64,000 nucleotides of DNA, taken from contig CACWZP010000010.1 of assembly GCA_902765395.1 (NCBI GenBank), positions 50,997 through 114,996 on the forward strand. The letters are read 5' to 3'. The DNA comes from an uncultured Eubacteriales bacterium. GTDB lineage: Bacteria; Bacillota; Clostridia; Christensenellales; Aristaeellaceae. Position numbers and translations under genes: made by a program. The notes beneath the pieces are model-generated. The model was given only the letters and a program-made list of their open reading frames with translations. It was not told the origin of the DNA and ran no database searches. Positions 1,861 to 56,435 of this stretch are shown here, piece after piece (position 1 is the first letter of the stretch; the number at the start of each line of letters is the position of its first letter).

Positions 1861-1878
1861 GAATTGTACTGCGGCGCT

Positions 1879-1907
1879 TTGCGCTCGCGCCGGATTTTTG
1901 ATATAAT
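1879..1907 (+). promoter_or_regulatory. Promoter for the EAL-domain gene
   Basis: A perfect TATAAT lies at 1902-1907. The best -35 match 17 bp upstream is TTGCGC, which is weak. The start of the downstream gene is about 30 bases from the -10. The AT-rich stretch around it is conspicuous in this GC-rich sequence. Confidence 0.45.
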
Positions 1908-1938
1908 AATAACAAATAAACTGATAGGTGAAATGGGA

Positions 1939-3609
1939 ATGCCATTTTTCAGCGACAGCTTTCAACGATTCATCACCACGCTGGCCAGCTCCGCGGAGAC
2001 ATCGGCCGTCTCCCAGCAGGCGCTGGAGGAGCTGGCGGGGGAACTGCGCCTGGCCCGCATGGACGTGGCGCTGACCATACCCGAAAACCGCTATCTGCCC
2101 CTGGGCAAGCGGGGCACGATGACCCTATATGACGCCCACTCCCCCGCCGACGAGGCGGACGTGTATACCCGCGTGCTGCGCACCGGCGACGGCGGCGAGG
2201 GGGATTTCCGCGCGCTGCGGCTGGCGGGCACCGCCCCCTGGACGGAGGACGAGCGCGCCGCGCTGGACGTGATCGTGGACGTGTACGGCATGCACGGCGG
2301 CCGCTTCCGGCTGATCGGCCAGGTGGAGAACAGCCTGCTCACCAACTACCTGACGGGCCTGCCCAACAGCGGCGGCTATCTGCGCGAGGTGGGCAGGCGG
2401 ATGCAGGAGGGCAGCCTCAGTGATTACGTGGCCCTGTACTTCAACCTGAAGGGCACCAGCATCATCAACCTGCGCTTCGGCCAGCAGCAGGGCGACGCCA
2501 TCATCCGCAAGTACGCCCATTCGCTGAAGGAGGCGCTGCTGGAGGACGAGCTGCTGGGCCACCTGGGCGGCGACAGCTTCGTGGCCATGGTGCGCCGCGA
2601 CCGGGAGGAGGCGCTGCTGGAGCGACTGGCCCACACCGAGGTGTACGCCGAGCAGGACGGCGGCGAGCGCGTGCCGGTGGCGCTGGGCGCCTGCGTGGGC
2701 GTCATGTCCCTGGACGACAAGCTGCCCGGCCCCTGGATGTTGATCTCCGGACCGGCCATCGCCTGGCAGCGGGCCAAGGCCGAGGGCATCCCCGTGCTGC
2801 GCCTGACCCGGGAGATGTACGAGCTGACCAACCGCACCCGCATCGTGGAGAACACCTTCAAGCACGCCCTGCGCGCCGGGGAATTCGTGCCGTTCTACCA
2901 GCCCAAGGTGGACATGGTCACCGGGAAGATCATCGGCGCGGAGGTGCTCTGCCGCTGGATCAGCGATGGCCAGGTGGTGCCGCCGGCGCAGTTCATCCCC
3001 ATACTGGAGCGCACGGAGGAGATCGCCGACCTGGACCTTTTCATCCTGGAGCAGGCCTGCAGGGACATGAGCGCCTGGAAGGCCGCAGGGCACACTCCCG
3101 TGCCGCTGTCGGTGAACATCTCCCGGCGGGACGTGGGCCTGGCCGGCATCATCGAGCGCATCGAGGCCTGCTTTGAGAAGCACGGCATCCGCAAGGGCGA
3201 GGTGCTGATCGAGATCACCGAGACCAGCAACGAGCGCGAGAGTACCCAGATGAAGGACTTTGTGCACAGGCTGTTCTGCGACGACATCTACACCTCCATC
3301 GACGACTTCGGCAGCGGCTATTCCTCCTTCAACTTCCTGCGCACCATGCCCGTGCGGGAGCTGAAGATCGACCGCAGCTTCATCAACCACCCCAACATGG
3401 CGGACAAGGACGAGATCATCATCGGCGGCATCATCGACATCGCCAGGCGGCTGGGCATCGAGGTGATCACCGAGGGCGTGGAGACCCGGGAGCAGGCGGA
3501 CTTCCTGATGAAGCTGGGCTGCCACCGCGCCCAGGGCTATCTGTACGACCGGCCCATGCCGAAGGAGGCATTTGAGTCCAGGCTTTTGCGGGGAATGTAC
3601 GAGCTATGA
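1939..3609 (+). CDS. c-di-GMP phosphodiesterase with degenerate GGDEF and intact EAL domain
   Basis: The protein has 556 residues: an N-terminal region of about 130 with no clear fold, a GGDEF domain (130-295) and an EAL domain (about 305-550). The cyclase signature is degenerate (GGDSF at 210-214), so diguanylate synthesis is unlikely. The EAL domain keeps the expected catalytic set: EVLCRW at 335, NIS, EITE, SIDDFGSGYSS, KID and EGVE. It should hydrolyse c-di-GMP to pGpG. There is no signal peptide or membrane segment, so the enzyme is cytoplasmic. The ATG at 1939 fits better than the one at 1933, because AGGTGA at 1926-1931 is then correctly spaced. A strong hairpin follows the stop codon. 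Confidence 0.88.
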   Translation: MPFFSDSFQRFITTLASSAETSAVSQQALEELAGELRLARMDVALTIPENRYLPLGKRGTMTLYDAHSPADEADVYTRVLRTGDGGEGDFRALRLAGTAPWTEDERAALDVIVDVYGMHGGRFRLIGQVENSLLTNYLTGLPNSGGYLREVGRRMQEGSLSDYVALYFNLKGTSIINLRFGQQQGDAIIRKYAHSLKEALLEDELLGHLGGDSFVAMVRRDREEALLERLAHTEVYAEQDGGERVPVALGACVGVMSLDDKLPGPWMLISGPAIAWQRAKAEGIPVLRLTREMYELTNRTRIVENTFKHALRAGEFVPFYQPKVDMVTGKIIGAEVLCRWISDGQVVPPAQFIPILERTEEIADLDLFILEQACRDMSAWKAAGHTPVPLSVNISRRDVGLAGIIERIEACFEKHGIRKGEVLIEITETSNERESTQMKDFVHRLFCDDIYTSIDDFGSGYSSFNFLRTMPVRELKIDRSFINHPNMADKDEIIIGGIIDIARRLGIEVITEGVETREQADFLMKLGCHRAQGYLYDRPMPKEAFESRLLRGMYEL

Positions 3610-3613
3610 ACGC

Positions 3614-3645
3614 AGCGGCGGCGCCTTGAAGGCGCCGCCGCTTTC
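3614..3645 (+). terminator. Hairpin terminator after the EAL gene
   Basis: A perfect 12-bp GC-rich stem (3614-3625 pairs with 3631-3642) with a 5-base loop is followed by a short CTTT tract. It lies between convergent genes and may act in both directions. Confidence 0.65.
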
Positions 3646-3661
3646 CATCAGCATGGCTTTC

Positions 3662-4615
3662 TCAATCCGTTTCCCCTATCTCCGCCGCGAAGCGCTTCAG
3701 CACCTCGTTGGCCGGCTTGCCCCAGGTGCAGTAGCCATTGTCGTCCACCCCGGCGTACTCCGGATAGAGCCGGGTGGCGTGCCAGTCCCACCAGCCCGTG
3801 CCGCGCACGAAGGGATGGCGCCTGATCGCGTCGGTGAAGGCCTCGTACCAGCGCCGCTGCACGTCCATGTCGATGCCTTCGCCAAAGCGCCAGTCGTTGG
3901 GCCGGTACTCGCTGCCCACCCGGGCGGGACAGCCGCACTCCATGAACATGAAGGGGCGGTCAGCCTTCTCCGCCGCGGCGCGGATGCGCTCGAAGTGCTC
4001 ATCCAGCTGGTCGATGGGATAGTAGCCGGAGGAGGAGATCACGTCCACGGCGTCCCACCAGGTGACCCTGTCCTCCTGGTACTTGTCGCAGTTGTAGGTG
4101 ATGGGGCCGCTGTAGCGCTGGCGCACCTCGGCGATCAGCGCGCGCCAGTGGCCCGCCTGGCCGTCGGTGCCCACCATCTCACAGCCCACGCACAGCATGT
4201 CCGTGCTGTTCTCCCGGGCCATGTCCGCCACGCGGCAGACGTGGGCGGTCCAGTTGGGGAACCAGTCCGACCAGTTGGGCTCGGTGGGCACGGGCGGGTC
4301 GAAGAAGTGGATGTAGGCCCGCCAGGCGCCGTCCCGGCAGTTCACCATGGCCTTCAATATCACCTTCAGGCCCAGCTTCTTCGCCTCGGCGCACACCGCG
4401 GCCACGTCTGCCTCGTCCATCACAGCGGGCGAGTCGGACACCACCTCGGTGGACCAGGGATGCTCCTGCCATGCGGTGACGGGCAGTATGATGGCGTTGC
4501 AGCCGGTGGACCGGGCCATCAGTTGAAGGGACGCCTTCCAGGCCGAGCCCGCGGTGAAGCCCCGCTTCTCGCAGAAGCCGAAGGTATAGGCGTTCAGAAA
4601 GGGCATGTGCTGCAT
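3662..4615 (-). CDS. Glycoside hydrolase, GH113-like (beta-mannanase type)
   Basis: This is a 317-residue TIM-barrel-like protein without a signal peptide, so it is probably cytoplasmic. The block LCVGCEMVGTDGQAGHWRAL, followed by a TYNCDKY segment and a WWDAVDVISSSGYYPI strand, closely follows the layout of GH113 enzymes. E146 would be the acid/base and E226 (FMFMECGC) the nucleophile. GH113 members act on beta-1,4-mannans or manno-oligosaccharides; the substrate here is inferred. AGGAGG precedes the ATG. The gene lies 9 bases downstream of a TIM-barrel gene on the same strand, so the two are probably co-transcribed. Confidence 0.7.
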   Translation of the reverse strand: MQHMPFLNAYTFGFCEKRGFTAGSAWKASLQLMARSTGCNAIILPVTAWQEHPWSTEVVSDSPAVMDEADVAAVCAEAKKLGLKVILKAMVNCRDGAWRAYIHFFDPPVPTEPNWSDWFPNWTAHVCRVADMARENSTDMLCVGCEMVGTDGQAGHWRALIAEVRQRYSGPITYNCDKYQEDRVTWWDAVDVISSSGYYPIDQLDEHFERIRAAAEKADRPFMFMECGCPARVGSEYRPNDWRFGEGIDMDVQRRWYEAFTDAIRRHPFVRGTGWWDWHATRLYPEYAGVDDNGYCTWGKPANEVLKRFAAEIGETD

Positions 4616-4624
4616 GGCATCCTC

Positions 4625-5482
4625 CTATTTCGCCTTGCCGAAGGCGTCCTGGTGGGCGTTGGGGCTGGCCCGCTTTTCGATATCCGGGAAGCGGCGCTCC
4701 AGCGCGGCGCGGGAGATCTCGATGTCCTCGGCGGCCTCGTCGGGATGGGTGCAGCCCACGGTGACCATGTCGCAGTCGCGGATGGTGTTCCACACGAAGT
4801 TCAATCCCACATAGGGCGTGGTGCGACCCGCAGCGAAGGGCTTGATGGTCATCACCGGCTTTTTCGCGCTGTTGATGATGGCGGCCACGGTCTCGATCTC
4901 CACCTGCATCAAAAAGCCCATGCAGTTGTAGATCTGGATGTAGGTCTGCACGTCGTAGCCGTTTTCGTCGGAATAGGTGATCAGCTCCGGCATGTGGCAG
5001 GACAGGCCGGGGATCATGCCCTCCTGGCGGATCATGTCGGTGTAGTCGTCGATGCGCTGGATGGCGTGCCTGTTCTTGTTCACCAGCTGCTCGGCGCTGG
5101 AGTGGTGGATCAGGCACAGCTTCGCGCCGCACATCTTGCTGCGGTGGATGGTGGCCCGGGCCTGCTTGCGGCCCTCCTCGGTGTCGTCCACGTTGATGAT
5201 GGGCGTGTCGATCAGGATCAGCTCCCTGCCGGTGGCCTGCATGGTCTCCTGCACGGCCTCCTGCATCACCCGCTCCTGCTGCAGCGGGCCCATGATGGTG
5301 TCCACGCCCTCGTCCAGGAAGGTCTTCAGCAACGGCACCACCTGCGCGCCGGCCGGGAATCGGTTCTTGATCTGCCGGTCCGCCGCGGGGCTGCGGTGGC
5401 TCCAGCCCAGGATCCAGTTGGTGCCGATGATCATGCGGGAGAGGGAAACGCCCTCCACTTCAGTCCGGGGAAACGTATTCAT
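4625..5482 (-). CDS. Uncharacterised TIM-barrel protein, aldo/keto-reductase-like
   Basis: The 285-residue protein starts MNTFPRTEVEGVSLSRMIIG. The opening and a late KPFAAGR segment followed by VTVGCTHPDEAAEDIE resemble aldo/keto reductases, where the last strands bind NADPH. The classical catalytic Tyr and Lys are not obvious, so it may be a relative with another activity. The start at 5482 is chosen because GGAGG lies just upstream; in-frame codons extending to 5581 would run back over the promoter. It is the first gene of a two-gene operon with the GH113-like hydrolase, which suggests a role in carbohydrate use. Confidence 0.55.
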   Translation of the reverse strand: MNTFPRTEVEGVSLSRMIIGTNWILGWSHRSPAADRQIKNRFPAGAQVVPLLKTFLDEGVDTIMGPLQQERVMQEAVQETMQATGRELILIDTPIINVDDTEEGRKQARATIHRSKMCGAKLCLIHHSSAEQLVNKNRHAIQRIDDYTDMIRQEGMIPGLSCHMPELITYSDENGYDVQTYIQIYNCMGFLMQVEIETVAAIINSAKKPVMTIKPFAAGRTTPYVGLNFVWNTIRDCDMVTVGCTHPDEAAEDIEISRAALERRFPDIEKRASPNAHQDAFGKAK

Positions 5483-5536
5483 ATGGCATCCTCCATTGCA
5501 CGGGCCTGCGCCCGTTATTTCTATCACTCCGCTCAT

Positions 5537-5565
5537 ATTATAACTGGCCTGGCCAGCGCCGTCAA
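5537..5565 (-). promoter_or_regulatory. Promoter for the TIM-barrel/GH113 operon
   Basis: On the minus strand TTGACG (5560-5565) and a perfect TATAAT (5537-5542) are separated by exactly 17 bp. The spacer contains the inverted repeat CTGGCC/GGCCAG, a possible operator. Confidence 0.75.
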
Positions 5566-5686
5566 GGACGAAAGCGGCCATTTCTCACGGCGTTCTCATG
5601 GGCTTCTCACCCAAAGACAACCTGCAGTTAACCTGTCTCTGCTATGCTTATGCCCGTGAGGAGAATACCCCTGTGGGAGGGATCGT

Positions 5687-7378
5687 ATGATAACCACCTA
5701 TTACGACATCGCGCTGGCGCTCTCGCTGCTGTTGACGCTGGTGTATGTGTTCATGTGGCACAAGCACTTCGACGTTCACATCACGCTGACCTTCGTGCTG
5801 GTGTCAGTGACAAACCTGGGCTGGGCCATGCTCAGCCGCGCCAAGACGCTGGAGGCGGCGCTGATCGCCAACCGGCTGACCTACGTGGGCGGGTGCTATT
5901 TGATGATGAACATCACATTCGTGGTATTCAGCATGTGCCAGATCCGCCTGAACCGCTGGCTGCGGGTGGCGATGGTGCTGGTGTCCACGGCGGTATTCGT
6001 CGCGGCCATGTCCATGGGTCAGGCCGACTTCTTCTACAAGAGCATCACCTTTGAGCGCGTGGACGGCACGGTGGTGCTGACCAAGGAATACGGGCCTGTA
6101 CATGGCCTGTTCGTGGCGATGACCCTCATCTACTTCCTGATGAGCGTGGGCGCCATCGTCTACTGCTACATCCGCAGGAACCAGGTGTCCCGGAAGATGC
6201 TGGGGCTGCTGTTCTTCCCGGTGGTGGTGTGCATGGTGGCCTTCTACGGCGGACGGAAGCTGTTCCCCCGGGTGGAGCTGGTGCCCGCGGCCTTCGACAT
6301 CGCGCTGGCCACCTGCCTGGTGATCGTGTACCGCATCTGCCTGTACGATATCACCGACACCGCCGTGGATTCCCTGGTGCAGAGCGGCGACACCGGCCTG
6401 GTCAGCTTCGACTTCGGCTTCCACTATCTGGGCAGCAACGAGACCGCCAAGGTCATCTTCCCCAACCTGAACAACCTGACCGTGGACCGGTCCATCCGGC
6501 GGGACAAGCAGATGCAGGACATCGTGCGTCCCTGGCTGGAGGCGTTCCGGGACGACGAGGGCCAGGATTCCCACTACTACGAGCGGGACGACAGCATCTA
6601 CCTGGTCAAGACCACCTACCTCTACGACGGCAGCCGCAAGCGGGGCTACGAGCTGTTCATCACCGACGACACCGAGAACCAGCAGCACATCGCCCTAATG
6701 GATCGCTACAATGCCCAGCTGGAGGCGGAGGTGGCCGAGAAGACGGCGCACATCGTGGAAATGCACGACAAGCTGGTTCTGGGCATGGCGACCATGGTTG
6801 AAAGCCGGGACAACTCCACCGGCGGGCACATCAAGCGCACCAGCGAGGGCGTGCGGCTGCTGGTGGAGGCCATCCGCGAGGACAACGTGTTCGAGCTGAC
6901 GGACGAGTTCTGCCGGGCCGTGGTGAAGGCCGCGCCCATGCACGACCTGGGCAAGATCGCCGTGGACGACGCGATACTGCGCAAGCCCGGCCGGTTCACG
7001 CCGGAGGAGTTCGACAAGATGAAATCCCACGCCGCCGAGGGCGCGCGGATCGTGCGCGAGATCCTGGCGGGCACCGACGACACCTATTTCCAGCAGATCG
7101 CCGAGAACGTGGCCCACTACCACCACGAGCGCTGGGACGGTTCCGGCTATCCGGAGGGCCTGAAGGGCGACGAGATCCCGCTGGAGGCCCGGATCATGGC
7201 CGTGGCGGACGTGTACGACGCGCTGGTGAGCAAGCGGGTGTACAAGGAGAGCATGTCCTTCGAGCAGGCCCACGGCATCATCATGGACGGCATGGGCAGG
7301 CACTTCGACAAGCGGCTGGAAGCGTATTACCTGGCCGCCAAACCGAAGCTGGAGGCCTATTACAGCAGCCTGGCATAA
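5687..7378 (+). CDS. Membrane c-di-GMP phosphodiesterase, 7TM sensor plus HD-GYP
   Basis: The 563-residue protein begins with seven hydrophobic helices (about residues 5-220), like the N-terminal 7TM sensor regions of histidine kinases. A PAS-like linker (about 225-330), a short coiled coil and an HD-GYP domain (360-555) follow. The HD pair is at 419-420, a second HH pair at 479-480 and the GYP signature at 487-489, all intact. HD-GYP enzymes hydrolyse c-di-GMP at a binuclear metal centre. GGGAGG precedes the ATG. The gene is transcribed divergently from the TIM-barrel/GH113 operon and ends in a strong terminator. The ligand is unknown. Confidence 0.87.
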   Translation: MITTYYDIALALSLLLTLVYVFMWHKHFDVHITLTFVLVSVTNLGWAMLSRAKTLEAALIANRLTYVGGCYLMMNITFVVFSMCQIRLNRWLRVAMVLVSTAVFVAAMSMGQADFFYKSITFERVDGTVVLTKEYGPVHGLFVAMTLIYFLMSVGAIVYCYIRRNQVSRKMLGLLFFPVVVCMVAFYGGRKLFPRVELVPAAFDIALATCLVIVYRICLYDITDTAVDSLVQSGDTGLVSFDFGFHYLGSNETAKVIFPNLNNLTVDRSIRRDKQMQDIVRPWLEAFRDDEGQDSHYYERDDSIYLVKTTYLYDGSRKRGYELFITDDTENQQHIALMDRYNAQLEAEVAEKTAHIVEMHDKLVLGMATMVESRDNSTGGHIKRTSEGVRLLVEAIREDNVFELTDEFCRAVVKAAPMHDLGKIAVDDAILRKPGRFTPEEFDKMKSHAAEGARIVREILAGTDDTYFQQIAENVAHYHHERWDGSGYPEGLKGDEIPLEARIMAVADVYDALVSKRVYKESMSFEQAHGIIMDGMGRHFDKRLEAYYLAAKPKLEAYYSSLA

Positions 7379-9316: not shown

Positions 9317-10507
9317 TCATTCCTCCACGGTGATGACGTCCCTTAGCAGGTAGCCGAAGGTGGGCCATGAAGTGGTTTCGTTCTCCTTGTAGCCCAGGCT
9401 CAGGTCCACGGTGTCGCTTTCGTCGGTGAGGCTCACGCCGGTGTAATCGCCCTTGAACACCTCGATGGTGCCCTTCTTCAGGCCCTCGATGGCCTTGTTC
9501 AGCTTCTCCTGGGTGCCATAGGCGGCCAGATGCTGGTTCAGCTCGGTCACCTCCACCCAGCCCTGGTCCAGGCCGGCGGAGACGTCGTTGCCGTGGACGC
9601 TGCCCTTCACGCTGCGCTCGATGCTCCTGCCCTCCAGCATGGCCTCCACCGCGCCCACCACATAGGGCGCCCAGTTCACCCGGCAGCCGATCAGCGATGT
9701 GCTCGGCGCGATGTCCATCATGCTCTGGTTGTAGGCCACGTGATAGACCCGCTTCGCGCCGGAGGCCTCCTCGCAGGCCATGGCCGGGCCGATGGTGTCC
9801 ACATGCTGGGCGATGATCACGCAGCCCTCGTCGATCAGGGCCCTGGTGGCGGCCTTCTCCTTGCTGTAGCTGCTCCAGGCGCCGGTGTAGCGCACGCGCA
9901 TCACGGCCTCCGGCGCGGCGGAGCGCACGCCCATCAGGAAGGCGGTATAGCCGGAGACGACCTCCACCGAGGGGAACGCGCCCACATAGCCCACCAGCGC
10001 CTCGTCCTTGGCCAGCAGGCCGTTGTCGATCATGTCCCGCAGCTTGAGCCCCGCGGCCAGGCCGGTGATATAGCGGCCCTGATAGATGGTGGCGTTGAAG
10101 GTGTGGTAGTTGTCGGGGCAGTCCTCATGGACGCCGGCGTTGTAGGACGTCTGGCAGAACTGCACGTCCGGGTACAGCCGCGCCGCCTCCAGGAATTGGT
10201 CGGAATAACTGTTGGTGAATATAATGTGGCAGTCGGCGCGCACCAGCTCGTGCACCGGCTCCAGCATCTCGCTCTCGGGCACATTACTGCTGACGTACAC
10301 CTCCACCCGGCCCGGGAAGCTCTTTTCCACTTCCCGTTCGGCCAGGCTGAAGTTGTAGGTGTAGGGCGTGCTCTCGTCGGTGTCATAGATGAAGCCCACC
10401 TTCAGCGCCTGCCGACCCACTTGGCCGCCATGGCCAAAGTAAATCCCGGCGACGACAGCCAGCACCAGCAGGGCCGCCACGAAAGATGTGATATTTACGC
10501 GCTTCAT
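9317..10507 (-). CDS. Membrane-anchored BMP/PnrA-type substrate-binding protein
   Basis: The 396-residue protein has an N-terminal helix (about residues 8-25) and a type 1 periplasmic-binding fold of the basic membrane protein (BMP/PnrA/Med) family. It shows LKVGFIYDTDESTPYTYNF, then IIFTNSYSDQFLEAA, ATIYQGRYITGLAAG and VGYVGAFPSVEVVSGYTAF. Family members bind nucleosides or similar small molecules. There is no lipobox cysteine after the helix, so it is probably an uncleaved membrane anchor with the domain outside the cell. Its ATG overlaps the stop of the HD-GYP sensor gene (ATGA), so the two are translationally coupled. No ABC permease or ATPase gene is nearby, which points to sensing. Confidence 0.82.
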   Translation of the reverse strand: MKRVNITSFVAALLVLAVVAGIYFGHGGQVGRQALKVGFIYDTDESTPYTYNFSLAEREVEKSFPGRVEVYVSSNVPESEMLEPVHELVRADCHIIFTNSYSDQFLEAARLYPDVQFCQTSYNAGVHEDCPDNYHTFNATIYQGRYITGLAAGLKLRDMIDNGLLAKDEALVGYVGAFPSVEVVSGYTAFLMGVRSAAPEAVMRVRYTGAWSSYSKEKAATRALIDEGCVIIAQHVDTIGPAMACEEASGAKRVYHVAYNQSMMDIAPSTSLIGCRVNWAPYVVGAVEAMLEGRSIERSVKGSVHGNDVSAGLDQGWVEVTELNQHLAAYGTQEKLNKAIEGLKKGTIEVFKGDYTGVSLTDESDTVDLSLGYKENETTSWPTFGYLLRDVITVEE

Positions 10508-13500
10508 GCCGATCCCTCCTTGGCCTCCCCGTCGTCCGTCTTCGCCGGATAGAGCGCATTCAGGTCGATCTTGCCGTCGTCGATCAGCTTCAACAGGATC
10601 TCCACGAACCGGGGATCAAACTGGGTGCCGCTGCACCGGCGCATCTCGTTCAGCACATAGTCGAAGTCCATCTGCTTGCGGTAGATGCGATTGGCAGTCA
10701 TGGCGTCGAAGGCGTCCGCCACGCCGATGATGCGGCCGTACAGCGGGATCTCCTCGCCCTTCAGCCCGTCGGGATAGCCTGTGCCGTCGTATTTCTCGTG
10801 GTGATAGCGCGCGCCGTCCACCACGTGGTCCAGCAGCGTGAAGTCCTTGAGGATCTCCGCGCCGCGGGTGACATGGCTCTTCATGACCGCGTATTCCTCG
10901 TCGGTCAGCCGCGCGGGCTTGTTGAGGATGGCGTCGGGGATGCCGATCTTGCCAATGTCATGCAAAAGCGCGGTGCGGCGCAGGTTCTCGCACTCCTCCT
11001 CGCTCATGCCGATCTCCCTGCCGATCAACGCCGAATACTCCGACACGCGCTTGGAATGCTGGCTGGTGCGCTCGTCCCTGGCGTCCACGGCATTGGCAAT
11101 GGCGATGATGGTCTCGTTGCCCATCTGGATCTTCTGGTTGGCGATGGCCAGTTCCCGCCGCTGGATGTCCAGCATGCGCTGCACCCGGGTGCGGGCGACG
11201 TACCAGGTGACCCAGGCCACCGCCAGCATCGGCACCAGCACCACATAGATGATGAACCACTGATTGTCGTAAATCTCCTTCTCCTTCACCAGCCGATAGT
11301 CCCGCTGTGCGAAGATCTCCGTCTGGTCGTTGTCAAACACCGCCAGATGGAAGGTGTATTCGCCGCTGGGCAGGTTGGTATAGGTGATGGTGCTCAGGCT
11401 GCTCTGGGGCAGTATGGTCCAGTCGGCATCAAAGCCCTCCAGCCAGTAGCCCACGAAGGGATCCTGGATGGTGTAGTTGATGACCTCGGGGTACATCTCG
11501 ATCTTGCTGACGCCCCGGCCAATTTCGATCAGATTGCTGCGGCCCAGGCGATGCATCGCGCCGTCCAGGCGCACGGAGCTCACCGTCATGCGGTAGGTGC
11601 TGCTGCCGGCGATGTAGCCGGCGGTGTCGATGATGTACACGCCGGTGTCGCAGGGCAGGAACAGGTCGCCGTGCTCGTCGCAGTAGTTCCAGGAATTGGC
11701 GGTCAGGGCGCTGTTCAGGCCGCTCTTGGCGTCCAGCAGCTCATAGCTCACCGCCTCACCGCCGGAGAGCAGCTCGTCCCGGTCCACCACGTAGATGCCG
11801 GCGCTGCTCATCACGAACAGGGTGTCCCGGTCCTTGGCGAACACGTCGTAGTTGTTGAAATACGGGAAGTTGTTCAGCGGGCGGATGGCCCCGTCGGCGT
11901 CCATGTAGCACAGGCCGTTGCTGGTGACGATAAACACGCCGTCCGTCTTGGGGTCGGGCACGGTGCGCAGGATGACCTCGGAAGACAGGCCGTCCTCCCG
12001 GGTGAGCATTCGCTCCACCTGGCCGTCCCGGATCACGGCGATGCCGTCGCCGTCGGTGCCTGCCAGGATGCGGCCGTCCTTCAGCTCCGTAACGGTGAGG
12101 ATCATGCTGTTGATCAAGCCGTCGGCGTAGCCCACGGTGTTCACGATCTCATGGCCCCGGATGAAGCTGACACCTGTATCGCCGCCGGCCATGATGGTGC
12201 CGTCGGACAGCTGGGCCACCACGCGGGCGCGGTTGCCGAAGCCGCCGTTTTCGCTGTTGTACCAGTGCTGGGCGCCGTCCGGCTCCACCTCCAAAAGGCC
12301 GCTTCCGTAGGTGCAGACCCAAAGGTGGTCGCTGTCGTCCACCAGCATGCACCGGATGCGCTTGCCGTCCAGCTGCTCGGTCAGTTCACTGTGGACGCGC
12401 CGCTTGCAGGCCTCGTCCACCACGTCCAGGCCCTTGTCGGTGCCGAAGTAGAACTCGCCCTGCCACTTCACCACCGTGTTCACCACGCGGCTGTCCATGC
12501 CCACTGTGCTGTAAACGTCCTTGAAGGCCGATGGCGCCATGCGCAGCAGGCCCAGGCGTGAGGACGTGAACCAGAGGTTGCCCTGGTAGTCGATGAGCAT
12601 GTTGTCGATGGAGTTGTTGAAATCGTTGGTGTTGATGGGCTCGAAGTCGTCTTCCCTGGTGATGTATCCCACGCCGTTGTCCGCGGAGATGAACAGCTCG
12701 CCGTTTTCCAGGTAGTACAGGTCGTTGAGGTTCTTGAGTCCTTCGCAGTCGCGAATGGTCTTCTGGTCGAAGCGGTCCTCGTTCACCTCGAACACGTAGA
12801 TGTGGTTGGTGGAGGTGCCCGCCAGCAGCACGCCATCCTCGTCGAAGCAAACGCTGTTGAACAGCTCCGCGCCATCGGGCAGCTTCAGGGAGCTGACGAT
12901 CTGGCCCTTCTTCATCAGGAACAGCCGGCCGTCGGAGGTGATGGCCGCCACGTGGCCGGCCTCGTCCGCCGCCAGCTTGTCGCAGTAGTTGATCTCCCAC
13001 AGGGTATTCACGGTCTTCAGGCCGTTGCTCAGCGTCAGCACCTGCAGGCTGCCGGTGGTGCCCACGTAGTAATAGCCGTCGCTGCCCTGCACGATGGCGC
13101 GCACGGAGTTGGACGGCAAGCCCCGGGACTGGTCCACCACGTTGGAGATCTCCTCGTTGATGCAGATGGACAGGCCGTTGTCGTTGGTACCGATCCAGAG
13201 GCGGCCTTCCTCATCCACGAACAGGCAGTTCACGTTGCGCACGGACCCATAGTCGTCCATCCAGCGGAACTCCCGGCCATTGTAGCGGTACAGGCCGGCG
13301 TAGGTGCCGATCCAGAGGATGCCGTCGCTGGTCTGGGCGATGTCGTTGGCCTCGCCGCAGGGCAGGCCGTTGTGGCTGGTGTAGATGGTCTGCACGTAGT
13401 CGTTGTAGTCGGTCCGGGCCTCGGCATTCTCGGCCCGGGCGACGGGCAGCGTCAGGCACCCGCCGCACAGCGCCAGCGCCAGTATCAGCGCCGCGGCGGC

Positions 13501-14094
13501 CTTTACGGCGCCATTGTTCCCGTCCTCCGCTCCCCCGTCGCCGCTCTTGCGGCCCCGGACGGCGTGCAGCAGGCGCAGGCACACGCCAAACACCACCAGC
13601 GTCAGCACCTTGTCAGCGAAATCCAGATAGAACTGGCCCATGACCTGGCACAGCAGTGCCGGTGCGCCCCGCTCCCGCAGGTAGCCGATCACGCCGTCGC
13701 CCCAGAGGTTGCCGGTGCTGCCGCCGTAGAAGATGATGTTCAGCGGCACGGACACCACCACCGCCGTGAGCGTCGTCGTGGCCGCCACCGACATGGTACC
13801 GAACAGGGTCGTCAGCTTGCGCCTGCGCGCGCCGATACCCACGATGACGCCCAGCACCGCGCCGGTGATGGCATAGATCGCGGACACGTTGTTCATCATG
13901 GCAAACATCGCGCTGCCCGCCACGCCCACTATGGCGCCGCACACCGGCCCGCCGGCATAGGCGCACAGCACCGTGCCGAAGGAATCCAGCCACAGAGGCA
14001 GCTCCAGCCGCGCAGCCAGCATCCTCCCCGCGATGTTGATCAATATGCTCAGGGCGACAAACAGCCCGATCTGCCACGTCTTCCAACGCTTCAT
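10504..14094 (-). CDS. Giant sensor: ECF-S-like membrane domain, beta-propeller, Y_Y_Y, HD-GYP
   Basis: The 1196-residue protein starts with a multi-helix membrane domain (about 1-185) resembling ECF-transporter substrate-specific components. A further hydrophobic segment (about 195-220) follows. A long extracellular region (about 225-750) contains Reg_prop-type beta-propeller repeats of the pattern D-G-x-L-W-I-G-T with NGLPCGEANDI-type turns. A Y_Y_Y domain (about 800-905), one membrane helix and a cytoplasmic HD-GYP domain complete it. HD-GYP residues are intact: HD at 1045-1046, the HH pair in RYHHEKYDG, and GYP near 1106. It probably degrades c-di-GMP in response to an external ligand. 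It lies between two orphan binding-protein genes in one operon. Confidence 0.82.
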   Translation of the reverse strand: MKRWKTWQIGLFVALSILINIAGRMLAARLELPLWLDSFGTVLCAYAGGPVCGAIVGVAGSAMFAMMNNVSAIYAITGAVLGVIVGIGARRRKLTTLFGTMSVAATTTLTAVVVSVPLNIIFYGGSTGNLWGDGVIGYLRERGAPALLCQVMGQFYLDFADKVLTLVVFGVCLRLLHAVRGRKSGDGGAEDGNNGAVKAAAALILALALCGGCLTLPVARAENAEARTDYNDYVQTIYTSHNGLPCGEANDIAQTSDGILWIGTYAGLYRYNGREFRWMDDYGSVRNVNCLFVDEEGRLWIGTNDNGLSICINEEISNVVDQSRGLPSNSVRAIVQGSDGYYYVGTTGSLQVLTLSNGLKTVNTLWEINYCDKLAADEAGHVAAITSDGRLFLMKKGQIVSSLKLPDGAELFNSVCFDEDGVLLAGTSTNHIYVFEVNEDRFDQKTIRDCEGLKNLNDLYYLENGELFISADNGVGYITREDDFEPINTNDFNNSIDNMLIDYQGNLWFTSSRLGLLRMAPSAFKDVYSTVGMDSRVVNTVVKWQGEFYFGTDKGLDVVDEACKRRVHSELTEQLDGKRIRCMLVDDSDHLWVCTYGSGLLEVEPDGAQHWYNSENGGFGNRARVVAQLSDGTIMAGGDTGVSFIRGHEIVNTVGYADGLINSMILTVTELKDGRILAGTDGDGIAVIRDGQVERMLTREDGLSSEVILRTVPDPKTDGVFIVTSNGLCYMDADGAIRPLNNFPYFNNYDVFAKDRDTLFVMSSAGIYVVDRDELLSGGEAVSYELLDAKSGLNSALTANSWNYCDEHGDLFLPCDTGVYIIDTAGYIAGSSTYRMTVSSVRLDGAMHRLGRSNLIEIGRGVSKIEMYPEVINYTIQDPFVGYWLEGFDADWTILPQSSLSTITYTNLPSGEYTFHLAVFDNDQTEIFAQRDYRLVKEKEIYDNQWFIIYVVLVPMLAVAWVTWYVARTRVQRMLDIQRRELAIANQKIQMGNETIIAIANAVDARDERTSQHSKRVSEYSALIGREIGMSEEECENLRRTALLHDIGKIGIPDAILNKPARLTDEEYAVMKSHVTRGAEILKDFTLLDHVVDGARYHHEKYDGTGYPDGLKGEEIPLYGRIIGVADAFDAMTANRIYRKQMDFDYVLNEMRRCSGTQFDPRFVEILLKLIDDGKIDLNALYPAKTDDGEAKEGSA

Positions 14095-14130
14095 TGCCGT
14101 TCCACTCCCCCCCCTTGACTCCCCTGATCC

Positions 14131-15060
14131 TTACATGCCCAGCTCGGCGGCCAGCGCCGCGTACTCCTCGAACCAGGCGCGGTACTGGCCCTCGGCCAGC
14201 AGCCCGTCGATCACGCCGTTGACGAAGTACATCAGCTGGAACTCGCCCTTGCGGCCCGCCACGCGGTCGCCGTCATATTCCTCCTCCAGCGTGTAGCGCT
14301 GATCCAGCAGCAGCGCAAGGCCGCTGTCCGGGTTGTTGGCGATATAGCCCTGCGCGGGCTCCACGTCCACCATGGCAGCGTCGGCCTCGCCGGAGGACAC
14401 CGCGTCGTAGACCTCCTGCTGGGTGGACAGCCGGCGGAACTCGTGATAGTCCATCACGTTCCTGGCCATCAGCAGCTCCTGCAGGGAGCCGCTCTGGGCC
14501 ACGATGTCGCGCCCGGCCAGATCCCCCGCGCCGGCAATGGTTCCGGCGTCCGCGGCGCGGATCAGCAGCGCGCCGCCCGCCCTCTCATCGGCAAAGTAAT
14601 AGCCCTTGGAAAGCTCCGCGATGGCGGCGCGGCCCGGCGTGAACGCCAGGGCGGAGATCGCCAGGTCGCAGCGCTCCTCGTCCACGGCGGTCAGCACCTC
14701 CGTGAACTCCATCGGCACGATCTCAAGCTCCACGCCCATGGCCTTCGCGATGGCCCGGGCCAGCTCCATGTCCGCGCCTACATACTGTTCCTGCCCCTCC
14801 CGGGACGGGTCGATGAACTCCTGGGGCGGGTAGTAGGGCTCGGTGGCCACGCGCAGCACGCCCCGGTCGCGGATGTCCGCCAGCACGCCCTCGGCGTTCT
14901 CGGGAATACCGGCGCTCACGTCCATGGAGCCGTCCACGAAATTCATGGCATTTTCCACATATACCGTCTCCCCGGCGTCCGCCTCCTCCGCCAGCGCCGC
15001 CATCGGCAGCGCCAGCGCGATCAGCAGCGCCAGAACCATCGTGCAAGTATTCCGTCTCAT
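14131..15060 (-). CDS. Secreted amino-acid-type substrate-binding protein (SBP_bac_3)
   Basis: The 309-residue protein has a signal peptide ending near ALAEEADA and no lipobox. The mature part follows the SBP_bac_3 fold: RGVLRVATEPYYPPQEF, then VGADMELARAIAKAMGVELE, CDLAISALAFTPGRA and a DAAMVDVEPAQGYI hinge region. Relatives deliver polar amino acids to ABC permeases or serve as sensor domains. The ATG at 15060 is used because GAGAGG lies 5 bases upstream. It is the first gene of the operon, 36 bases before the giant HD-GYP sensor, and no permease is encoded nearby. Confidence 0.85.
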   Translation of the reverse strand: MRRNTCTMVLALLIALALPMAALAEEADAGETVYVENAMNFVDGSMDVSAGIPENAEGVLADIRDRGVLRVATEPYYPPQEFIDPSREGQEQYVGADMELARAIAKAMGVELEIVPMEFTEVLTAVDEERCDLAISALAFTPGRAAIAELSKGYYFADERAGGALLIRAADAGTIAGAGDLAGRDIVAQSGSLQELLMARNVMDYHEFRRLSTQQEVYDAVSSGEADAAMVDVEPAQGYIANNPDSGLALLLDQRYTLEEEYDGDRVAGRKGEFQLMYFVNGVIDGLLAEGQYRAWFEEYAALAAELGM

Positions 15061-15119
15061 AAGCACCTCTCGGCCGTAGGGTCGATCGTCCTTCTTAACC
15101 TATACTTTTTCTAATTTAC

Positions 15120-15149
15120 ATTATAACCGATCTGACGTGTGCCAGTCAA
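15120..15149 (-). promoter_or_regulatory. Promoter of the binding-protein/HD-GYP operon
   Basis: TTGACT (15144-15149) and TATAAT (15120-15125) on the minus strand are separated by 18 bp. The leader to the ATG at 15060 is about 50 bases and shows no obvious riboswitch. Confidence 0.75.
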
Positions 15150-56219: not shown

Positions 56220-56435
56220 AGTTCAAGGCGAACTTATCCTGGGGTGTGCGTTAGTCAATGCTTTTACCCACAGATTCAAAAAAGGATTCCGGGTCGGTAT
56301 GCAGATGCCAAGCCTCCTTCGCAGTGGAAGGCAGCAAGCAGCCGCAGGTCTCCGCCCTGCCTGAGCGGCGGGTGAAAAAGCAGCGGCAGACGGCACTTAC
56401 GGGATATTTTAGGAACTCTCACGAGTTCCTTTTTT
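56220..56435 (+). ncRNA. ssrS: 6S RNA
   Basis: A strong promoter and an intrinsic terminator bound about 216 bases with no credible ORF. The 5' arm TCCTGGGGTGTGCGTTAGTC and the 3' arm GCAGACGGCACTTACGGGA match the closing region of 6S RNA next to the central bubble; compare E. coli CTGAGATGTTCGCAAGC and GCGGCGGCATCTCGG. GTGCGT and ACGGCAC pair with one bulge, and TATCC pairs with GGATA outside them. 6S RNA binds the housekeeping RNA polymerase by mimicking an open promoter. The exact ends are estimated. Confidence 0.75.

Follow-up and report, generated by a model that had tools for sequence, protein, structure and literature searches.

A putative c-di-GMP phosphodiesterase receptor encoded with two binding proteins and no transporter in Clostridia

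Why should the gene of a giant membrane sensor be flanked by genes for two extracellular binding proteins when no transporter is encoded with them? The question is raised by an operon of an uncultured Eubacteriales bacterium, situated in the 64,000-nucleotide stretch of contig CACWZP010000010.1 that was analysed here as a whole (the window). To our knowledge, only a few of the signals that c-di-GMP receptors receive in gut Clostridia have been identified. Reading of the open reading frames (ORFs) places three genes on the minus strand, in the transcription order SBP_bac_3 protein (SBP), 1196-aa sensor and BMP-family protein, the last two genes overlapping as ATGA; gene order, positions and overlap agree with a preliminary description of this DNA. 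The features referred to below are as follows.

15120..15149, minus strand: site resembling a sigma-70-type promoter (TTGACT-18-TATAAT), ahead of the SBP gene; a consensus match only, at 11/12 positions
14131..15060, minus strand: secreted SBP_bac_3 (PF00497) binding protein, 309 aa from ATG, with a signal-peptide-like start and no lipobox
14887..14961, minus strand: conserved SBP segment between the signal peptide and the SBP domain (residues 36-60 in the 311-aa frame)
10504..14094, minus strand: sensor, 1196 aa
13540..14094, minus strand: S-component-like membrane domain of the sensor (S-domain), residues 1-185, with hydrophobic segments; NF045596 match (E=2.3e-16) below cut-off
13429..13503, minus strand: signal-peptide-like segment of the sensor with an A-x-A site, residues 198-222, at the S-domain/propeller junction
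11515..13413, minus strand: Reg_prop beta-propeller ectodomain, about residues 228-860, from Pfam and the HTCS structures 4a2l, 3v9f and 3ott
11305..11448, minus strand: Y_Y_Y domain, residues 883-930, from Pfam
11197..11253, minus strand: transmembrane helix, residues 948-966, from hydropathy
10609..11097, minus strand: HD-GYP domain, residues 1000-1162, motif residues intact
10504..10507, minus strand: ATGA shared by the sensor stop and the BMP start, read from the sequence
9317..10507, minus strand: BMP/PnrA-like protein, 396 aa, without lipobox; hydrophobic N-terminal residues 6-24 taken as anchor

The SBP and sensor genes are separated by 36 bases, and the 4-nt overlap between sensor and BMP recurs in 45 of 72 measured pairs, which suggests that translation of these two genes may be coupled. 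The longest SBP frame opens at a GTG at 15066 (311 aa), the ATG at 15060 being the better fit. A terminator-like hairpin (15197-15170, minus strand) precedes the promoter-like site at 15149-15120, and the promoter scan returned 3 promoter-like sites against 1.0 +/- 0.9 in shuffles. The gene that follows BMP, which from its sequence we take to encode glucose-6-phosphate isomerase, has a promoter-like site of its own at 9286-9257. Co-transcription of the trio is predicted from gene spacing and the promoter-consensus match; for RNA control, an Rfam search returned only a distant 6S RNA (RF00013, window 56233-56409). Genes for a GGDEF-EAL protein (window 1864-3609) and a 7TM-HD-GYP protein (5687-7378) are found some 2 to 8 kb away from the operon's end, so that several c-di-GMP genes are clustered in the window.

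The sensor matches the Pfam families HD_5 (PF13487, E=7.9e-41), Reg_prop (PF07494, E=9.7e-24) and Y_Y_Y (PF07495, E=1.5e-11), the last two bearing out the Reg_prop/Y_Y_Y region of the preliminary description. Hydropathy places several membrane segments within residues 9-181 and further ones at 200-218 and 948-966, and because of these segments the propeller is predicted to be extracellular and the HD-GYP domain cytoplasmic. The protein thus has the parts of a Reg_prop/Y_Y_Y receptor, namely propeller repeats and Y_Y_Y outside, a transmembrane segment and a cytoplasmic output, with the topology taken from hydropathy. Both the HD_5 profile and the conserved HD...GYP residues assign the output to the HD-GYP family: H1013, H1045, D1046, K1049, H1074, H1098, H1099, D1103, G1106, Y1107, P1108 and D1127, which we take to be the motif residues, are invariant in 53/53 aligned sensors and, as described earlier, intact in the window. 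The closest PDB matches of the domain include the cGAMP enzyme 5z7c, so that c-di-GMP is only the presumed substrate of the sensor, a predicted phosphodiesterase.

Conservation of the arrangement was examined in 300 genomes of the window's family, with two candidates scored per genome. At E<=1e-30, 166/300 genomes match the sensor, HD-GYP-only and paralogue matches included, and at least 80 near-full-length matches (start at or before residue 13, end at or after 1151; two candidates per genome) occur in 76 genomes, the window's among them. SBP and BMP were each found in 29 of 30 loci with 1.5-kb flanks, the exceptions (L014 and L034) being at contig edges, and in the wide regions of 34 full-length matches plus the window the SBP stands upstream and the BMP downstream in 35/35, which establishes the trio as a real unit in this family. 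The 84,980 genomes of named species were also scanned, with the sensor alignment and two peptide patterns, and the best 80 of 411 confirmed relatives were taken. Among these best 80, BMP is present in 77 and SBP in 36; in the three without BMP at most 156 bases follow the sensor match, and the 44 without SBP comprise one at a contig edge and 43 with at least 1972 bases upstream.

Taken together, the 35 wide family loci and the best 80 of 411 make a set of 115 loci (108 distinct sensors, seven of them occurring twice), in which BMP follows the sensor in 112, with three misses at contig edges, and SBP precedes it in 71. Where present, both are adjacent to the sensor and on the same strand. The three-part system originally proposed is therefore a conserved trio, but one from which the SBP is missing in 44/115 loci (one a contig edge), and the stable core is sensor plus BMP, though BMP is absent in 3/23 further orthologue loci. 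SBP-minus loci belong mostly to records named Lachnospiraceae or Butyrivibrio, some of them isolates. Ten SBP-minus genomes were searched; eight contained any SBP match at 1e-10, the best of these having 26-32% identity and covering the query from residue 47 at the earliest, so that no SBP orthologue was found in the ten.

Further afield, 13/391 genomes class-wide match the sensor at 1e-120, and in three, the window's being one, the match starts at the first residues; 74/397 genomes of a Lachnospiraceae-like family match at 1e-150. The 23 further orthologue loci come from this latter family: BMP is adjacent in 20, two of which (L281, L282) are apparently the same contigs as L153 and L139, and absent in L261, L272 and L273. 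Orthologue loci L211 and L212 carry BMP and no SBP orthologue. BMP was found beside none of seven more distant S-domain-propeller-HD-GYP genes, one of them followed by only 842 bases, and beside none of nine S-domain-propeller genes without HD-GYP, three of them cut at the gene end; one of the nine, in L254, encodes a histidine kinase with a receiver domain. The 24 loci of propeller paralogues without S-domain (23 matched through HD-GYP) hold no BMP or SBP orthologues, weaker matches in two of them being a 630-aa BMP-like ORF in one and an ordinary SBP in the other, and a further such paralogue, in L262, has neither neighbour.

The history of the unit was followed on a 134-row FastTree phylogeny with four distant receptors as the root. 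BMP changes once on it and SBP four times, L083 being left out of the SBP count. On this tree, in which deep nodes are weak, long branches are flagged and deep branches shift with outgroup choice, the simplest story would be an old sensor and BMP pair, a single SBP gain on the branch leading to the window's clade, and losses. The largest loss is that of a 41-row clade with a local support of 100. An SBP contact patch was sought as relaxed conservation after SBP loss, and an entropy scan of a clade without SBP peaked at sensor residues 400-404 (window 12883-12897; z 4.1), the most relaxed stretch of the propeller there. This candidate was rejected, as one of two SBP-keeping control clades peaked comparably, elsewhere and at z 3.9 (2.3 in the other).

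Outside the trio, no gene cluster is found in more than 16/115 loci, with genes called by a codon-usage score, and the order of the trio is therefore not a matter of chance. Random neighbourhoods in related genomes had been named in advance as an objection; the surrounding genes do vary, while the trio itself is conserved. The 115 loci show 48 instances, none of them at the window, of a further same-strand gene no more than 60 nt from the module, which is thus not always a closed unit.

The constancy of this unit bears on the explanation that BMP and SBP serve ABC transporters encoded elsewhere, the sensor being merely co-regulated. In its favour, contig C31 of the window's own genome encodes an entire BMP-type ABC transporter, various kinds of ABC ATPase turn up here and there in the 115 loci, and permease-like genes flank nine of them (8 distinct contigs), in L036/L081, L088 and L136 shortly upstream of the module and in the same direction. 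Judged from their sequences and an EAA-motif search, these flanking genes appear to be of the sugar (CUT1) type; for amino-acid permeases, the EAA-motif pattern matched some of the same loci. Being outside the unit and at 9/115 loci only, sugar-type permeases were rejected as partners. No transporter gene lies within the trio, as the preliminary description had noted for the window; it had counted permease genes at homologous loci as evidence against its proposal, and these exist only in the flanks. The C31 transporter, moreover, is accompanied by a BMP whose pocket residues are different, and BLAST of the 1266 predicted proteins of the 115 loci found no homologue of its permeases and thus no sign of a linked BPD_transp_2-type permease. 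The conserved adjacency is to the sensor and not to transporters, and lipobox-like motifs in the first 60 residues are rare in both binding proteins (1/34 SBPs and 2/49 BMPs), the window's SBP and, as already described, its BMP having none. With a complete BMP-type transporter elsewhere in the genome, the receptor-linked BMP is an addition to the transport BMP, and service to distant transporters is an unlikely explanation of the unit.

The BMP protein matches PF02608 at E=4.3e-22 (78.9 bits against a cut-off of 24.1), and the best PDB relatives of its alignment are 3s99 and AtzT (6pi5). The AtzT report lists the contacts of that protein with guanine as Tyr45, Ser97, Phe98 (backbone), Glu165, Trp194, Asn218 and Asn220 (PMC6834077). 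The positions matching Tyr45, Glu165 and Trp194 are kept as Y49 (45/49), E182 (44/49) and W211 (46/49), those matching Asn218 and Asn220 are H235 (45/49) and D237 (40/49), and in the same 49 proteins the Ser97 position is G in 26, S in 9 and N in 9, that of Phe98 being Y in 38. The pocket looks more like those of the purine-base binders AtzT and 3s99 than that of a nucleoside binder; from this alignment alone, the nucleoside-like ligand first suggested has been replaced by a purine-base-like one. In the transporter-linked BMP of the same genome the residues at Y49, E182, W211 and H235 are Q, A, N and Y, with D237 shared. Y49, E182, W211 and H235 are all shared by an orphan BMP on contig C25 of this genome (L077:6689-7846), which is 37% identical to the window's BMP and whose gene is divergent from that of a GGDEF-EAL-PAS protein (3352-6255). 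BMP similarity is also seen over residues 296-455 of a 653-aa protein on contig C4 of the same genome (L075:5148-7109), in which no signal peptide is obvious.

The SBP (PF00497, E=1.5e-21) has the amino-acid binders 4i62 and 4h5f as its nearest PDB structures. S138 and R146 are found in 34/34 members and D234 in 29/34; these are presumably amino-acid-type pocket residues, R146 being the carboxylate-binding Arg, and with the Pfam match they place the protein among the SBP_bac_3 amino-acid binding proteins. A segment of about 25 residues before the domain holds N39, V44, D49, I54 and P55 in 34/34, and among the 60 PDB matches listed for the SBP all begin at profile position 54 or later; this segment is a possible docking arm. 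No Omp85 match was obtained in the genome, and the host is therefore probably single-membraned, in which case an unanchored SBP could remain at the surface only with the help of a partner.

These pockets also bear on a reading in which BMP and SBP form a constitutive part of the receptor, structural or stabilising in function, and the propeller or S-domain senses the ligand. In hybrid two-component receptors the propeller senses sugars by itself, the SBP can be lost, and no BMP adjoins the more distant S-domain-propeller receptors, all of which would suit such subunits. A purely structural role would not, however, require the pocket residues of both proteins, which are kept in most members, and we regard this reading as improbable.

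A receptor complex is the best explanation of the conserved BMP pairing, the gene overlap and the absence of transporter genes, and we consider it probable, with some reservation, that the sensor is a c-di-GMP phosphodiesterase whose gating depends on the operon's binding proteins as co-receptors. A binding-protein gene is conserved beside that of a predicted membrane c-di-GMP enzyme, with no transporter genes in the unit. The membrane-anchored BMP, as constant partner, would bind a small extracellular ligand, perhaps purine-base-like, and dock on the receptor ectodomain, altering HD-GYP activity. In the window's lineage the secreted amino-acid-type SBP would have been added as a second input. 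Docking, ligands, catalysis and the direction of the c-di-GMP change are what we infer. That receptor and binding proteins have stayed paired in many species of gut and rumen Clostridia suggests a complex that carries a signal from outside the cell to the inside.

The N-terminal S-domain had been called ECF-S-like. Residues 12-174 do match the NCBIfam profile ECF_S_CD3073 (NF045596; E=2.3e-16) and contain membrane segments, but the score of 60 bits is far under the curated cut-off of 180 bits. The families matching the window's sensor in Pfam at E<=0.1 do not include 5TMR-LYT (PF07694), which matches another protein (L272:6303-8507) just under cut-off. According to Partipilo and Slotboom, the S-component fold is common to ECF transporters and 5TMR kinases, and a helix-1 AxxxA motif is tied to ECF coupling (PMC11109136). 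That the S-domain is a working ECF transport subunit coupling uptake to signalling, as the profile match and two CbiQ/EcfT-type proteins in the genome might suggest, is very improbable and was rejected, given the sub-threshold score and an AxxxA motif (residues 6-30) in only 5/53 aligned sensors, the window's not among them. In-frame stops in some sensor relatives coincide with the gene end in the loci inspected, and recoding was dismissed.

S-domains also occur in other company. A 735-aa protein of the same genome (contig C42, L178:194-2401) joins an S-component-like domain to HD-GYP, with no BMP or SBP among the ORFs of its 8.7-kb contig. S-domain-propeller proteins with a histidine-kinase-type output are encoded at L254:5944-10755 and L255:5932-11872, the latter gene overlapping a second S-domain-HD-GYP gene. 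An S-component-like domain is in frame with an ion channel at L180:2609-3922 (437 aa, Pfam Ion_trans), and at L182:5196-6549 an S-domain gene adjoins one that, from reading its sequence, is channel-like.

The linker between S-domain and propeller resembles a signal peptide, with a basic start, a hydrophobic core and A-x-A. In 63 SBP-plus sensors position -1 is A in 61, G in 1 and S in 1, and position -3 is A in 40, V in 10, G in 4, T in 3, S in 2 and C in 1, with 3 gaps. The site is relaxed in the Lachnospiraceae clade without SBP, where 41 sensors have A (30), V (8), T (2) or S (1) at -1 and 12/41 have L, F, E or K at -3. Most paralogues without S-domain start, as judged by eye, with a signal-peptide-like sequence at the corresponding place. 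Cleavage of this linker is a guess. We offer only tentatively, and as a rather doubtful extension, that the sensor could be a polyprotein cut after the A-x-A at residue 221 into an independent S-component-type membrane protein and a receptor made of propeller and HD-GYP, the latter integrating purine-like (BMP) and amino-acid-like (SBP) ligands into one c-di-GMP decision.

The receptor described here is conserved and genetically defined, comes with candidate ligand carriers, is present in cultured Lachnospiraceae isolates too, and offers a direct test case for the use of binding proteins without transporters. With it, BMP-family proteins join the binding proteins likely to be used in signalling, and the S-component 'transceptor' idea is extended to propeller receptors with HD-GYP and kinase outputs. 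No description of the three-part combination was found in open-licence PMC full text. The main text of Partipilo and Slotboom 2024, as far as available, has no mention of HD-GYP, propeller or substrate-binding protein (PMC11109136). In common with the 5TMR histidine kinases, an ECF S-component-like fold forms part of a receptor, here preceding a propeller receptor. The hybrid two-component receptors (4a2l, 3v9f, 3ott) have the Reg_prop ectodomain in common with the window's sensor, which also has Y_Y_Y; unlike these receptors with their kinase output, it has an HD-GYP output, an extra S-domain and partner binding proteins. Med, a BMP-family lipoprotein of Bacillus subtilis, is reportedly required by the membrane sensor kinase KinD (work attributed to Banse et al. 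in 2011); that pair has a kinase output, a dCache ectodomain and a lipoprotein anchor, with neither propeller nor HD-GYP. The pocket aromatic pair and acidic residue of AtzT and the Brucella basic membrane lipoprotein 3s99 are kept in the window's BMP family, whereas Asn218/Asn220 of AtzT are mostly His/Asp in receptor-linked BMPs, and AtzT is discussed as a transport binding protein (PMC6834077). Stimulation of receptors by SBPs is treated as widespread in one article (PMC9602780), and a review of c-di-GMP inputs states that of the binding-protein clan only SBP_bac_3 had been studied in c-di-GMP networks, as a domain of RmcA (PMC8846402). The closest parallel in kind is NspS-MbaA, in which a binding protein controls a c-di-GMP phosphodiesterase (PMC5646818). 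In that Vibrio cholerae system MbaA is a GGDEF-EAL protein and NspS binds polyamines, whereas the window's system combines HD-GYP, propeller and S-domain with BMP and SBP_bac_3 proteins in a host that is probably single-membraned.
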